Assembly: GCF_000021945.1 (NCBI RefSeq)
Contig: NC_011831.1
Location: 3,671,353-3,735,352, forward strand
DNA from: Chloroflexus aggregans DSM 9485
Lineage (GTDB): Bacteria; Chloroflexota; Chloroflexia; Chloroflexales; Chloroflexaceae
Length of the DNA stretch: 64,000 nucleotides
Reading direction: 5' to 3'
Shown: piece after piece, positions 40,091 through 45,249 of the stretch
How positions within the stretch are numbered: position 1 is the first letter of the stretch
Layout: every line of letters starts with the position of its first letter
The notes under the pieces: generated by a model
The model's input: the letters and a program-made list of their open reading frames with translations, nothing else
The model's database searches: none
What the model was told of the DNA's origin: nothing
Made by a program: the position numbers and the translations under genes

Positions 40091-41005
40091 ATGATCAAAC
40101 CAACGTTTGCTGAACGTGTTGCTCAGCTTGAAACGAGTGACAAAGCGCCAACTCGCCTCGATCTGAAATTGCTGGCGAACCTTGGTCCTGAAAGTGTCTA
40201 CATTTTTTGGGAACAGTGGCGTACATTTAGTCTCGAACGGCGACGCCATATCATGCGTCTGCTTGCCGAGATGGCAGAAGAGCAGATCCAGCTTGATTAC
40301 CGTCCGGTGTTCCGCGCCTGTCTGGCCGATCAAGACCCCGAAATCCGGGTGCTGGCTATTGAAGGGTTGTGGGAAGATGACCACGAACAGATGATGGATC
40401 GACTGATTCAGATGATCCACGACCCGGCGGGTGAGGTGCGAGCTGCGGCATTGCTCAGCCTCGCTCGTTTTGCCTATCGTGCCGAGATCGGTGAATTGGC
40501 GGCAAGTGCATGTGAACGCTTGCATGCAGCATTACTTGCGGCTGCCAATGATGAGACTCAGCCGCTCGAGGTGCGGCGGCGGGCTATTGAGGCCCTTGGT
40601 TACTTTGCCACGTCGCATGCTGCCCAAGATGCTATCGGGCGGGCATACCATGCGGAGGACATTCTCATGCGTGAGAGTGCTGTCTTGGCGATGGGGCGCT
40701 CAATGCTACCGACTTGGATGCCGTATATCAAACGCGAGTTGCAAAGCCCGTCGCCGGCGTTACGCTACGAAGCGGCACGTGCGGTCGGTGAATTTGGTGA
40801 AGATGGGCGTGATTTGCTGCCGTTACTCTTGCCGTTGGTGGAAGAGGAAGATACTGAAATAGCCCTTGCTGCGATTTGGGCGCTCGGTCAGGTGGGTGGC
40901 CCAGATGCACGCCGGATTTTGCAACGGCTGTCTCGTTCACGGGATGAAACCCGTGCGCAGGCGGCCCAAGATGCGCTTGCCGAACTCGATTTTGATACCC
41001 TCTGA
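40091..41005 (+). CDS. HEAT-repeat protein
   Basis: A 304-residue all-helical protein. HEAT-type repeats are clear: DPEIRVLAIEGLWED, AGEVRAAALLSLARFAYRAEI, LEVRRRAIEALGYFATSH, SPALRYEAARAVGEFGED, DTEIALAAIWALGQVGGPDARRILQRL and ETRAQAAQDALAEL. Such proteins are scaffolds for protein binding or phycobilin-lyase-like roles in phototrophs. It begins a plus-strand run of close genes (PIG-L, FemAB, MurE, DHOD-like) with gaps of 6 bases or less apart from one of 31. The ribosome binding site is weak. Confidence 0.85.
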   Translation: MIKPTFAERVAQLETSDKAPTRLDLKLLANLGPESVYIFWEQWRTFSLERRRHIMRLLAEMAEEQIQLDYRPVFRACLADQDPEIRVLAIEGLWEDDHEQMMDRLIQMIHDPAGEVRAAALLSLARFAYRAEIGELAASACERLHAALLAAANDETQPLEVRRRAIEALGYFATSHAAQDAIGRAYHAEDILMRESAVLAMGRSMLPTWMPYIKRELQSPSPALRYEAARAVGEFGEDGRDLLPLLLPLVEEEDTEIALAAIWALGQVGGPDARRILQRLSRSRDETRAQAAQDALAELDFDTL

Positions 41006-41011
41006 GGATGT

Positions 41012-41821
41012 ATGCCGTTTGTTACCGAACAGGCCGCGACATTGCCCGACGGCTATCGTCATATCGTGTTGTCGCCGCATCTTGATGATGCGGCGCTTTC
41101 CTGTGGAGGCTTTATTGCCCGCGCTACCGCTCTCGGTGAACCGGTCTTGGTGGTAAATATCTGTAGTGGTAGCCCACCACCGGATACCGAGTTTAGCCCG
41201 TTTGCCCAATCGTTGCATGCCCGCTGGGGTTTGCCACCGGCCACGGTCGTTGCTCACCGACGAGTTGAAGATGCTGCGGCGCTGGGTGTACTTGGCGCCG
41301 ATGCCTTGCTTGTCCCCGCACTGGATGCGATTTATCGCCGACCCGATGTCTATGCCGATGAGACGAAGCTGTTTGCCGTTCCGGCCTCTGATGATGATCT
41401 GGCCGATGTGGTTCGTACACTCATCGCTAGCTTAACCGAACGCTACGCGCGGGCCAGTTTTTATCTTCCCTTAGGTGTTGGCCTCCATGTCGATCATCAA
41501 CTGGTCTTTAGCGCGGCAACTGCTGCGTTACTTGAAACAGGTGTCTCCTATGCTTATTACGAGGATTTTCCTTATGCGCGGCAGGAAGCAGCCGTTGAGC
41601 AACGCATGACGATGATCGGACGTGAACGTTATACACCGCGCTATGTTCCGCTCGATGAGGTATTGCTTACGCGCAAGATAACCGCGATCTCGGCGTATGC
41701 CAGTCAATTGGGTGTGCTCTTCGGCGGTACGGCGGCGATGCCGGCGGCCGTTACCGAATACGCAATGCGCGTTGCACCGCAGAATATGCGCTATGCCGAG
41801 CGACAATGGGTACGGGTATGA
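41012..41821 (+). CDS. PIG-L/LmbE-family deacetylase
   Basis: A 269-residue zinc-dependent N-deacetylase. LSPHLDDAALSCGG holds the His23, Asp25, Asp26 site and GLHVDHQLVF (about residue 160) gives the third metal ligand region. Members act on N-acetylglucosaminyl lipids or conjugates such as those in mycothiol or bacillithiol synthesis. Here the neighbours FemAB and MurE point to the cell envelope. Its stop overlaps the FemAB start (ATGA). Confidence 0.9.
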   Translation: MPFVTEQAATLPDGYRHIVLSPHLDDAALSCGGFIARATALGEPVLVVNICSGSPPPDTEFSPFAQSLHARWGLPPATVVAHRRVEDAAALGVLGADALLVPALDAIYRRPDVYADETKLFAVPASDDDLADVVRTLIASLTERYARASFYLPLGVGLHVDHQLVFSAATAALLETGVSYAYYEDFPYARQEAAVEQRMTMIGRERYTPRYVPLDEVLLTRKITAISAYASQLGVLFGGTAAMPAAVTEYAMRVAPQNMRYAERQWVRV

Positions 41822-42870
41822 GGTGGTTCATCGGCATTCCCGATCAGGTGCAGTGGGATGCCTTCGTCGCTGCTCATCCGCACGGTAATTTGTTGCAGGC
41901 GAGTCCGTGGGGTAGGCTGAAAGAACGGTTTGGCTGGCATTGCCACCGGTTGGCGGTGTTCGATTCGATGGGGACCCCTGTCGCCGGTTGCCAGGTGTTG
42001 TTTCGCCGAGCTTATGGCTTGGCGTTCGGCTATGTGCCACGTGGCCCGTTGTTGGCTGGCGATCCGGCCATTGATGATCAATTAATACGGGCGTTACGAT
42101 GGTTGGGTTGGCGGATGGCTGCGGTACTGATCAGATTGGAACCGAATGTGTTGCTTGATGAACCCCACGCGACAACCCTGATGGATTGGGTACACCGTCA
42201 TCGCTGGCCAATAGCCGAGACGATCCAACCCCGTAGTACCATTTTGGTCGACCTCCAACCGACCGAAGAGGCGCTCTTCGCTGCTTGCTCGAAGGGTCAT
42301 CGCGCCGATATTCGCCGCGCCGAGCGACTTGGCGTGACCGTGCGGGTAGGCGATGAAACTGATCTTACGACGTTTTACACTATTATGCAGGCTACCGGCA
42401 GTCGAGCGTCATTTGCTATTCATAGTCCTGCGTATTACACCGCTGCGTGGCGACTGCACCAGCCGCATGCTCGGTTGCTGATCGCCGAACACGATGGTGA
42501 GCCGGTTGCTGCTCATCTGGTCTTCGCCGATACGCGCTATGGGCGTTATCTCTACAGTGGGGCAACGGACGCCGGTTTGCGCAGTGGCGCCAATCATCTC
42601 CTTGAGTGGCATGCAATGCGTTGGGCGCGCGCGCTGGGCTGTATCGGTTACGATCTGTGGGGCATCCCCGATGCCCTTGGTCAAGCCGCCTATGCGCCTG
42701 ATGAACAGACCCGTCTGGCCCTCGAACAAGCAGCCCACCATGACCCTCTAATCGGTGTCTATCGCTTCAAGAAGGGATTTGGTGGCCGAATTGTGCGTTT
42801 TGTCCCGGCATTCGATGTCGTGTTGATGCCACCACTGTACGCGCTTGCGCGGCGTGTATTGGGAGGCTAA
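41818..42870 (+). CDS. FemAB-family peptidoglycan peptidyltransferase
   Basis: A 350-residue protein with two GNAT-like domains. The N-terminal part has NLLQASPWGRLKERFGWHCHRLAVFD, and the middle has FAACSKGHRADIRRAERLGVTV as in FemX/FemA proteins. The C-terminal GIYRFKKGFGG-like stretch (GVYRFKKGFGGRIVRFVPAFDVVLMPPLYALAR) is diagnostic. These enzymes use aminoacyl-tRNA to add amino acids to the side chain of lipid II. The position directly before MurE supports this. The start ATG 41818 overlaps the PIG-L stop. Confidence 0.87.
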   Translation: MRWFIGIPDQVQWDAFVAAHPHGNLLQASPWGRLKERFGWHCHRLAVFDSMGTPVAGCQVLFRRAYGLAFGYVPRGPLLAGDPAIDDQLIRALRWLGWRMAAVLIRLEPNVLLDEPHATTLMDWVHRHRWPIAETIQPRSTILVDLQPTEEALFAACSKGHRADIRRAERLGVTVRVGDETDLTTFYTIMQATGSRASFAIHSPAYYTAAWRLHQPHARLLIAEHDGEPVAAHLVFADTRYGRYLYSGATDAGLRSGANHLLEWHAMRWARALGCIGYDLWGIPDALGQAAYAPDEQTRLALEQAAHHDPLIGVYRFKKGFGGRIVRFVPAFDVVLMPPLYALARRVLGG

Positions 42871-42901
42871 TCCGCTGTTTCGTGTCGCAGAAAGATGTGC
42901 T

Positions 42902-44434
42902 ATGCCGAAAACACTCGCCGATTTGTTGTCTGGGGTATCCGTGTACCATCTGATCGGTGACCCTGCTACGCCGATCAGTGCTCTTGTCTACGACTCGCGC
43001 CGGGTGACGCCGGGGAGTCTGTTTGTCGCGATTCGTGGGCAGCACAGCGATGGCCATAACTTTATCCCACAAGCGATTGCTGCCGGAGCGGCAGCAGTGG
43101 TCGTCGACCAGCGGTACTGGCATGGTGCGGTGTCGGCTGAAGTGCCGGTCGTGGTTGTTGCCGACAGTCGGGTGGCGCTGGCGCCTTTGGCTGCCGCCTT
43201 TTACGAGTATCCGGGGCAACAGTTGACGACCATCGGGATTACCGGCACCAAAGGGAAGAGTACGACCACCGACCTGACGGCTCAGCTCTTGGCTGCTGCT
43301 GGGCGTACTGTAGGAATGATCAGTACGGTTGATTTTCAGATCGGTACGCGGCGCTGGCCGAATGACACCCGCCAAAGTACACCGGAAGCGCCAGAAGTAC
43401 AGGCCCTCTTGCGCGAAATGGTTGTCGCCGGGTGCGATACAGCCGTGATTGAGGCTACTTCTCACGCCCTCTCGCCGCGTTGGGGGCGGTTGGTGGGTTG
43501 TGCCTTTGCGGTGGCGGTGATGCTCAACATCGGTCACGAACATCTCGATTTTCACGGTACCTTTGAGCAATACCGGGCCGACAAAGCCCAACTCTTTGCC
43601 CTGCTTGCCGAACGTCATGGCCCGACGTGGGCTATTGTGAACGCCGATGATCCACATCACGGCACGTTCCTGGCTGCTGTACCGTCGCAAACGATGCGAT
43701 TACGCTATGCCTTGCACGCTCCCGCCGACGTGCAAGGTCAGATTGTCCACAGTGGGCCGGCAAGTAGCCACATGCGGATACATTCACCGTGGGGCGAAAT
43801 TGAAGTGAACGTGCCGCTTCCCGGACGTTTCAATGCCAGTAACGTACTGGCCGCACTCACCGTTGCCCTTACGCAGGGTGTGCCGCTCGAACGTGCTGCT
43901 GCCGCTGTCGCTCATGTCCGTGCCCCACGCGGGCGGATGGTGTCGATCAATGTCGGTCAGCCGTTTACCGTAATCGTCGATTACGCGCATAATCCCGATT
44001 CGTTTGAGCAAATCTTCACCATGCTTCGCCCACAGGTGACAGGTCGAATAATCGCTGTGTTTGGAAGCGCCGGCGAGCGCGATGTGAGCAAACGCGCCAT
44101 TCAAGGCGAGATTGCCGGGCGTATGTGTGATTTGCTCGTGTTGACCGATGAAGACCCGCGTGGCGAAGATCGTGAGGCGATCATTGCCCAGATCGCTGCC
44201 GGCGCCGAACGAGCCGGTAAACGACCCGGGAGTGGTTACCTTTGTATTCCCAACCGGGCACAAGCGATAAGGACGGCCATCGCTGCCGCTCGGCCCGGTG
44301 ATATGGTGTTGCTGTTAGGCAAAGGTCACGAAGGTAGTATCATCTACGCCGATTATACGCTGCCGTGGGATGAAGAAGGTGAAGCGCGACGGGCGCTGGC
44401 CGAATTAGGCTATCATGCTAAAGAGCAAGCATGA
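42902..44434 (+). CDS. murE: UDP-MurNAc-tripeptide synthetase (MurE-type Mur ligase)
   Basis: A 510-residue Mur ligase that adds the third amino acid to UDP-MurNAc-L-Ala-D-Glu. The N-terminal uridine-binding domain has YDSRRVTPGSLFVAIRGQHSDGH. The ATP loop is GTKGKSTT (about 114-121). The central domain has STPEAPEVQALL, IEATSHAL and HEHLDFHGTFEQYRADKAQLF. The C-terminal domain has VDYAHNPDSFEQI, FGSAGERDVSKR and GKGHEGS. The position of the DNPR motif that selects meso-DAP reads EDPR (in TDEDPRGED), which may reflect ornithine as substrate. The start is ATG 42902; the ribosome binding site is poor. Confidence 0.9.
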   Translation: MPKTLADLLSGVSVYHLIGDPATPISALVYDSRRVTPGSLFVAIRGQHSDGHNFIPQAIAAGAAAVVVDQRYWHGAVSAEVPVVVVADSRVALAPLAAAFYEYPGQQLTTIGITGTKGKSTTTDLTAQLLAAAGRTVGMISTVDFQIGTRRWPNDTRQSTPEAPEVQALLREMVVAGCDTAVIEATSHALSPRWGRLVGCAFAVAVMLNIGHEHLDFHGTFEQYRADKAQLFALLAERHGPTWAIVNADDPHHGTFLAAVPSQTMRLRYALHAPADVQGQIVHSGPASSHMRIHSPWGEIEVNVPLPGRFNASNVLAALTVALTQGVPLERAAAAVAHVRAPRGRMVSINVGQPFTVIVDYAHNPDSFEQIFTMLRPQVTGRIIAVFGSAGERDVSKRAIQGEIAGRMCDLLVLTDEDPRGEDREAIIAQIAAGAERAGKRPGSGYLCIPNRAQAIRTAIAAARPGDMVLLLGKGHEGSIIYADYTLPWDEEGEARRALAELGYHAKEQA

Positions 44435-45249
44435 TCGATCTTGCCCCCCATAACCCACACACCCTGACCATCACGACACCGGTGATTGCCGCTGCCGGTA
44501 GTCTCGGTGATGTCGTTGGGGTGGCTCGATGGCTTGGCCTCACTCATCCTCATTCCGACCACGGTCTCGGCGCGATTATTAGCTCGACCGTTACCGTAGC
44601 CGGTCGGCGCGGCCAACCGCAGATGCTCGCCACGCCGGCCGGCGTACTGTACCACCACGGTAATGCCAGTCTGAGTGTCAAGCAGGTGCGTGAACGACTA
44701 GCTCCGCGCTGGGCCGGCTACCACGTACCGGTGTTGGTGAGTATCGCCGGTGCGGAGGCTGCCACTGTTGCCGCTGCCCTCGACGGTGTCGCCGGTGTTG
44801 CCGGCTTCGAGGTGGCTTTGCCGGCGCTCACCGCCGCCGAAGCAGCGCAGCGGGTCGCGGCTGTACGACGTGCGACTCTCTTGCCGCTGATTGTTCGTCT
44901 GCCCGGTGAATTACCCGATCCGGTGGCCGTGGCACAAGCTAGTATTGCTGCCGGTGCTGATGCAATTGCCTTAATCGGTGGGTTGCCAGCCTGTATGCCA
45001 CAGGCAGACGGCCGGCTTGTGTATGGACGGCTGGGCGGGCCGGCTATTTTTCCTTTGGCACTCCGCATGGTTGCGGCCGTTGCTGCGGCAGTGTCGGCGC
45101 CGGTGATCGGAATGGGTGGTGTTGCGGCTCCCGATCATGCGCGGACGATGTTTCATGTCGGAGCACAAGCGGTAGCGTTGGCGAGCGCGTTAGTAACCGA
45201 TCTGCGTCGGGCTAAGCTGATTGCCGATGCAGTGGGTGCAAGTGACTGA
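44431..45249 (+). CDS. Dihydroorotate dehydrogenase-like protein lacking catalytic motifs
   Basis: A 272-residue TIM-barrel protein similar to class 1B PyrD (VIAAAGSLGDVVG at the N terminus; ADAIALIGG, GRLGGPAIFPLALRMVAAVA, VIGMGGVAAPDHARTMFHVGAQAVALASAL at the FMN-binding end). The catalytic region ELNISCPN is replaced by GFEVALPALTAAEA, with no Cys or Ser, and PVIVKLSPN by PLIVRLPGELP. It is therefore unlikely to oxidise dihydroorotate. It starts with ATGA overlap with murE and converges with the GT39 gene, overlapping it by 60 bases. A PyrK-like gene lies 2.2 kb further. Confidence 0.78.
   Translation: MIDLAPHNPHTLTITTPVIAAAGSLGDVVGVARWLGLTHPHSDHGLGAIISSTVTVAGRRGQPQMLATPAGVLYHHGNASLSVKQVRERLAPRWAGYHVPVLVSIAGAEAATVAAALDGVAGVAGFEVALPALTAAEAAQRVAAVRRATLLPLIVRLPGELPDPVAVAQASIAAGADAIALIGGLPACMPQADGRLVYGRLGGPAIFPLALRMVAAVAAAVSAPVIGMGGVAAPDHARTMFHVGAQAVALASALVTDLRRAKLIADAVGASD

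Follow-up and report, generated by a model that had tools for sequence, protein, structure and literature searches.

The only MurE ligase of Chloroflexus aggregans DSM 9485, which is encoded in a 64,000-nucleotide stretch of the chromosome (contig NC_011831.1, positions 3,671,353 to 3,735,352; here called the window), very likely places L-ornithine at position 3 of the peptidoglycan stem peptide, judging from sequence comparison and gene content. We arrived at this assignment because the enzyme carries EDPR at the site where MurE enzymes that add meso-diaminopimelic acid (DAP) carry DNPR, because DapB and DapF were not detected in the genome and a LysW-type operon was, and because the pattern Glu-Asp-any residue-Arg (E-D-x-R) was common to phyla with ornithine-type walls. 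The window MurE is a variant of a known enzyme and not a new kind of enzyme.

The EDPR motif and other residues of the window MurE

The gene and the residues that matter for the argument are given below; the residue counts refer to the sequence sets described in the next section.

42902..44434, + strand: MurE, proposed UDP-MurNAc-L-Ala-D-Glu:L-ornithine ligase; 510 residues; matches to TIGR01085 and Pfam; only MurE of the genome
44069..44071, + strand: Ala390, at the position of E. coli Gly386; 85 of 88 Chloroflexota and 38 of 38 Deinococcota sequences have Ala, and 37 of 37 DNPR sequences have Gly
44150..44161, + strand: EDPR motif, residues 417 to 420 (E417-D418-P419-R420), which replaces DNPR (E. 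coli 413 to 416) in the alignment
44318..44332, + strand: GKGHE, residues 473 to 477, kept in the alignment; its Glu corresponds to E. coli Glu468 (role from excerpts of PMC3829189)
44366..44368, + strand: Trp489 (E. coli position 480); 86 of 88 Chloroflexota and 38 of 38 Deinococcota sequences have Trp, and 36 of 37 DNPR sequences have Phe

The start codon was placed at ATG 42902, which yields the 510-residue protein; the TTG at 42845 chosen by an open reading frame finder falls within femAB. All three Mur ligase domains (PF01225, PF08245, and PF02875 in Pfam) were present, and the score against the TIGR01085 murE model was 495.7 bits, compared to a curated cut-off of 257.3 (NCBIfam). The lysine-ligase equivalog NF010628, also from NCBIfam, was missed (268.2 versus a cut-off of 536).

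A sequence-only reading of this DNA had proposed that EDPR stands in place of DNPR. This was borne out by a gap-free alignment of EDPR with the DNPR of E. coli (residues 413 to 416), M. tuberculosis, and other solved DAP-adding MurE enzymes and by the recurrence of EDPR in relatives, and it places the window enzyme outside the DNPR-bearing group of meso-DAP-adding enzymes. A sequencing accident was ruled out, since the six other genomes of the genus, and in total 82 of the 88 Chloroflexota sequences, agreed. In known MurE structures, as described in excerpts of PMC3829189, the far carboxylate of DAP is bound by the second (Asn) and fourth (Arg) motif residues, and its side-chain amine is bound jointly by the Asp at the first position and Glu468 of GKGHE. 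Thus, the window MurE differs at two of the positions in contact with the third amino acid. Arg393, Arg420, and Glu477 (E. coli 389, 416, and 468) and the equivalent of Gly464 were retained. The window enzyme has Ser479 at the position of E. coli Tyr470, and Ser or Thr versus Tyr at this position split the groups in the same way as residues 390 and 489.

When we compared the window enzyme with known relatives, the meso-DAP-adding MurE enzymes (E. coli 1e8c and M. tuberculosis 2wtz; EC 6.3.2.13) shared its full-length Mur ligase domains, TGTxGK loop, GKGHE, and equivalents of Arg389 and Arg416. In contrast to these enzymes, the window MurE has E-D for D-N (413 to 414), Ala for Gly386, Ser for Tyr470, and Trp at 480, and it comes from a genome with no visible DAP pathway. 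The L-lysine-adding enzyme of S. aureus (4c12; EC 6.3.2.7) works on a basic diamino substrate that has no far carboxylate, as the window enzyme is predicted to do, but its DNPA keeps Asp-Asn and lacks the Arg. The Thermotoga maritima MurE (4bub; L/D-Lys), whose motif is DDPR, shares the second-position Asp and the Arg with the window enzyme; however, it has Asp first and adds lysine, whereas the window enzyme has Glu first. The enzymes of Thermus and Deinococcus shared E-D-x-R, Ala390, Trp489, and Ser or Thr479, with His, Ser, Ala, Tyr, or Cys at the third motif position where the window MurE has Pro.

Distribution of the motif, DAP genes, and published walls

The Chloroflexota set consisted of 88 distinct genes from 257 matching genomes of 301 searched, with the 29 best below the window MurE plus places chosen to spread over families; duplicates L099 and L100 were dropped, and one genome contributed two genes. 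The Deinococcota set contained nine named Thermus sequences and the 29 best-scoring of 61 genomes, all 61 of which had a match. For the phylum that includes the Clostridia, we used the 29 best sequences besides G316, from 119 genomes. A set of 116 mostly actinomycetotal sequences combined the 30 best and 80 picked sequences from the 148 genomes that matched, three of which were used twice, with six from other searches; one of them, L271, ends before the motif. The 46 sequences from outside the Chloroflexota and Deinococcota included distant Mur ligases (KSB1, Syntrophomonadaceae, and second copies) that are not clear MurE enzymes.

Among the 88 Chloroflexota sequences, EDPR was found in 82, DDPL in two, and EDCR, EDPH, DDPR, and DDPI in one each; DNPR was found in none. 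The MurE of G221 (L085), whose DNA has a G+C content of about 69% near murE, also reads EDPR. The sequence-only reading had proposed a comparison with Thermus and Deinococcus, and E-D-x-R was present in all 38 Deinococcota sequences, with H, S, A, Y, or C as the third residue; T. scotoductus (EDHR), T. composti, and T. brockianus were among the named examples. Taken together, 122 of the 126 sequences from the two phyla have E-D at the first two positions. The same reading had named EDPR in DAP-containing bacteria as evidence that would speak against ornithine. We found no E-D-x-R among the 46 outside sequences, 37 of which have DNPR, and none in the 116 mostly actinomycetotal sequences, which include 87 with DNPR, 12 with DDAY, and 3 with EDPA.

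The accompanying claim that meso-DAP-adding enzymes carry DNPR also held: DNPR was found in 29/29 sequences of the Clostridia phylum, as well as in E. coli, Lentibacillus, Scopulibacillus, a Desulfobacterium, and a Rhodospirillales metagenome-assembled genome. The 29 Clostridia-phylum sequences and 29 Deinococcota sequences were both 41 to 45% identical to the window MurE, and the former scored as high as or higher than most Deinococcota sequences against it. Because equal identity came with a different motif, overall similarity does not predict the motif. Ureibacillus, which has a wall of the lysine type, reads DDPR.

Two blocks of Actinomycetota were set aside as observations in their own right. 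Three sequences (L372, L373, and L376, from G615, G584, and G573) combine EDPA with AKGDE in place of GKGHE and are possibly an independent non-DAP lineage; L372 was 32% identical to the window MurE, and the three, all distant from it, were not used as evidence. The 12 DDAY sequences (L333, L334, L338, L346, L352, L354, L356, L357, and L361 to L364) have Ala at the Gly386 position and are likely another non-DAP type.

Searches of the C. aggregans genome for DapF (TIGR00652) and DapB (TIGR00036) gave no match; among 14 control genomes, the same searches detected DapF in 9 and DapB in 11. Every known DAP route (succinylase, acetylase, DapL, and Ddh) requires DapB. Thus, no home-made DAP route was visible. 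The genome does contain a LysW-type aminoadipate operon, in which genes for HacA-like and HacB proteins, a homoisocitrate dehydrogenase-like protein, a LysW that ends in EDWGE (the hallmark of LysW), LysX, and an ArgC/LysY-like protein lie side by side. An aminoadipate route as in Thermus is predicted to run from this operon.

Next to this single-genome result, we set a comparison of 36 genomes, in which E-D-x-R was present in all 22 that lacked both DapB and DapF versus 9 of the 14 that had DapB (Fisher P = 0.005, without correction for kinship). The five genomes that departed from E-D-x-R all carried DapB. In 30 Chloroflexota genomes, DapF was found in 4 of 6 without EDPR versus 3 of 24 with EDPR (P = 0.016); G115 has no DapF but does have a DapB-like gene. 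No DapF or DapB over the cut-off was found in six tested genomes of the Thermus/Deinococcus group. The Chloroflexota sequences L049, L067, L070, and L061 read DDPI, DDPL, DDPR, and DDPL, three of the four come from genomes with DapF, and G053 and G006 have no FemAB; a different wall chemistry is likely in these lineages. In the tree, three of the departing sequences (one each of DDPR, DDPI, and DDPL) formed one deep branch, with L061 apart.

Published wall chemistry agreed with this distribution. Excerpts of the respective papers describe ornithine-type walls in Thermus scotoductus, T. flavus, T. thermophilus, and D. radiodurans (PMC4573324), ornithine with Gly2 bridges in Deinococcus indicus (PMC6618347), an ornithine wall in Herpetosiphon (PMC3368417, PMC6210107), ornithine with a bridge of Ser and probably Gly in Ktedonobacter (PMC3236041), ornithine with beta-alanine in Sphaerobacter (PMC3035262), and L-ornithine in Dictyobacter (PMC12453558). 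For Chloroflexus aurantiacus, ornithine appears in the title of Jurgens 1987, as given in the reference list of PMC2615216. Wall chemistry and MurE sequence are tied by species name for T. scotoductus and by phylum in the other cases. The window MurE has the E-D-x-R signature that is common to the MurE enzymes of the ornithine-walled Deinococcota (38/38).

Substrate and mechanism

The sequence-only reading had suggested an ornithine-type MurE, and the suggestion gained support from the motif shared with Deinococcota, its absence from the sampled sequences outside both phyla, and the genome without DapB and DapF. The choice of ornithine over lysine rests on the published walls of relatives and on the shared motif. 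As for how the enzyme might select ornithine, the Asn-to-Asp change at the second motif position would remove one carboxylate ligand and place a negative charge next to the Arg, which would disfavor DAP. Ornithine has a side chain one carbon shorter than those of lysine and DAP, and the change from Asp to the longer Glu at the first position would let the enzyme reach the ornithine amine. The adjacent FemX-like protein would then load the first bridge residue onto this amine. In this proposal, the two motif residues are the putative cause of the substrate preference.

A broader form of the proposal is that E-D-x-R (E. coli 413 to 416) is an ornithine code, in which Glu413 offsets the absent methylene group and Asp414 neutralizes the Arg that binds the carboxylate, and which arose once, in the Chloroflexota-Deinococcota branch. 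If so, the genome would reveal the diamino acid of the wall, and both phyla, Tepidiforma included, would be wrongly annotated as "DAP-type." We regard the case for and against this broader form as evenly balanced.

Several results weigh against the ornithine assignment or the proposed mechanism. EDPR retains the carboxylate-binding Arg of the DAP enzymes. DapF was found in three EDPR Chloroflexota genomes (G239, G143, and G146), and a LysA-like gene of C. aggregans (L235:1981-3315, + strand) exceeded the cut-off for diaminopimelate decarboxylase, which is hard to explain without DAP. No MurE with E-D-x-R is known to have been assayed. In addition, the lysine enzyme of S. aureus takes ornithine weakly, according to excerpts of PMC3829189, and the map from motif to substrate is therefore not one to one. 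Finally, the Chloroflexota and Deinococcota MurE sequences lay on one side of a single branch (SH-like approximate likelihood ratio test support of 99), also when 14 marker columns were removed. The E-D-x-R signature probably had a single origin, in which case the match between motif and ornithine counts as one event, not two. Kinship as a simple explanation of the shared motif was only partly true: the enzymes do form one branch, yet the equally similar sequences of the Clostridia phylum have DNPR.

Because the E-D-x-R enzymes share one branch, there is less support for the two residues as the sole cause of the preference, and a second account of the motif keeps weight. In this account, ornithine is added, but E-D-x-R is an inherited mark of the Chloroflexota-Deinococcota branch, and selectivity comes from Ala390, Ser479, Trp489, or the ornithine level. 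It differs from the proposal above on mechanism and not on substrate, so that confidence in the two overlaps, and we consider it a serious possibility, albeit one that falls short of an even chance. All of the E-D-x-R enzymes seen are on that branch, other positions split the groups nearly as cleanly, and the S. aureus MurE is said in excerpts of PMC3829189 to select lysine largely via its pool. On the other hand, both motif residues belong to the known contacts of the third amino acid (same source), E-D was kept across two old phyla in all but 4 of 126 sequences, and departures in the 36 tested genomes occurred only where DapB was present.

A lysine-adding MurE, for which the aminoadipate route would provide lysine, perhaps in abundance, as has been argued for S. 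aureus, is unlikely. Lysine can be made in this genome, and an Asp at the second motif position is also found in Ureibacillus (DDPR) and in the Thermotoga enzyme; however, the lysine-type enzymes compared here hold Asp at the first position, and ornithine is the reported wall component in Chloroflexus, Herpetosiphon, Thermus, and Deinococcus. We consider it highly improbable that the window enzyme is an ordinary meso-DAP-adding MurE with EDPR as a neutral variant, as its automatic name implies, because even though it retains the motif Arg and the equivalents of E. coli Arg389, Gly464, and Glu468 and scores above the cut-off of the DAP-ligase equivalog NF001126 (437.3 versus 373 bits; NCBIfam), the genome has neither DapB nor DapF, the constant DNPR of the Clostridia phylum indicates that the motif does not drift freely in DAP lineages, and relatives are reported to have ornithine.

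The automatic name "DAP ligase" is thus very probably wrong. That NF001126 accepts the window MurE although no DAP route is visible in the genome suggests that this model does not separate DAP enzymes from ornithine enzymes, and the same misnaming is likely in the MurE enzymes of relatives. For most bacteria, wall chemistry is guessed from MurE, and a two-residue marker is a cheap correction that would predict the third residue in uncultured Chloroflexota and would turn the choice of ornithine by MurE into a mutagenesis question on two residues. It also offers an answer to the puzzle of the Tepidiforma walls, for which excerpts of PMC10284905 give neither DAP nor lysine and contain no report of ornithine, although the genes were annotated as "DAP-type." Searches of open-licence PubMed Central papers listed none with EDPR or an ornithine code in MurE in its title or the start of its abstract. 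Within that literature, the finding that E-D-x-R spans two ornithine-walled phyla and tracks the loss of the DAP pathway is new.

Neighboring genes and genome context

The sequence-only reading had placed four genes on the + strand, from a HEAT-repeat gene through PIG-L and FemAB genes to a MurE gene ending at 44434, and all four positions were correct. The genes that flank murE are as follows.

40091..41005, + strand: HEAT-repeat protein, which opens the same-strand run; Pfam HEAT_2, 100 bits; same strand as murE in 4 of 89 Chloroflexota loci
41012..41821, + strand: PIG-L/LmbE-type deacetylase, with a 16-base overlap with the start of femAB; Pfam PIG-L, 45.4 bits (cut-off 28.2)
41806..42870, + strand: FemAB-family aminoacyl transferase, FemX-like; PF02388, 140 bits (cut-off 24)
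44431..45249, + strand: dihydroorotate-dehydrogenase-like protein, overlapping the murE stop codon; Pfam DHO_dh, 60 bits; same strand as murE in 11 of 89 loci

In the set of 89 loci, two genes are counted twice, and 29 loci extend only 1.5 kb upstream. The short gaps and overlaps suggest a single transcript. The dihydroorotate-dehydrogenase-like gene is probably cotranscribed with murE, which does not imply a role in the wall.

The femAB gene is the sole one in the genome. Its closest solved relatives were the S. aureus lipid II glycyltransferase FemX (6snr; 84 bits), followed by the Weissella FemX (1ne9; 54 bits) and 4ii9. The window protein shares the FemAB domain with FemX and, as the only FemAB, is expected to be a first-residue transferase, but these similarities are remote, and the FemX alanyltransferase equivalog NF047883 was missed (64.7 versus a cut-off of 500). 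A FemAB gene was found near MurE on the same strand in 43 of the 89 loci. No FemAB gene was found in G143, G053, and G006, all of which have DapF, or in the Deinococcota G345 and G372, which do not. The prediction that FemAB builds a cross-bridge on ornithine was strengthened by its FemX-like character, its status as the sole FemAB, and its frequent position near MurE; the enzyme probably attaches the first residue of the bridge to the ornithine side-chain amine, with aminoacyl-tRNA as the donor expected for this family. In loci L050 and L051, FemAB genes are located on both sides of MurE.

In the case of PIG-L, the deacetylase gene beside femAB that the sequence-only reading had named is indeed present, whereas its suggested link to peptidoglycan was not supported. 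PIG-L was near MurE in only 17 of 89 loci, of which 16 had the same gene order as the window, and we did not retain it as a member of a wall module.

The genome consists of one contig of 4,684,931 bp and contains six Mur-ligase-type genes, namely, the window murE, murF, murD, murC, a MurT-like gene, and a FolC-like gene; murF, murD, and murC were named from sequence and gene order. A second MurE elsewhere, which would have made the window copy a specialized one, was ruled out because only one of the six is a MurE. The dcw cluster (L008) contains, in an order read from sequence, ftsI, murF, mraY, murD, ftsW, murG, murC, murB, ddl, ftsQ, ftsA, and ftsZ. No murE was found in this cluster, and the window murE is located some 200 kb away. 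The MurT-like gene (L009:1338-2762, - strand) scored 263 bits against an equivalog cut-off of 800, and no GatD-like gene was recognized alongside it. Directly after ftsZ, the region L008:16980-17952 is repetitive, has long open frames on both strands, and is probably a tandem repeat array.

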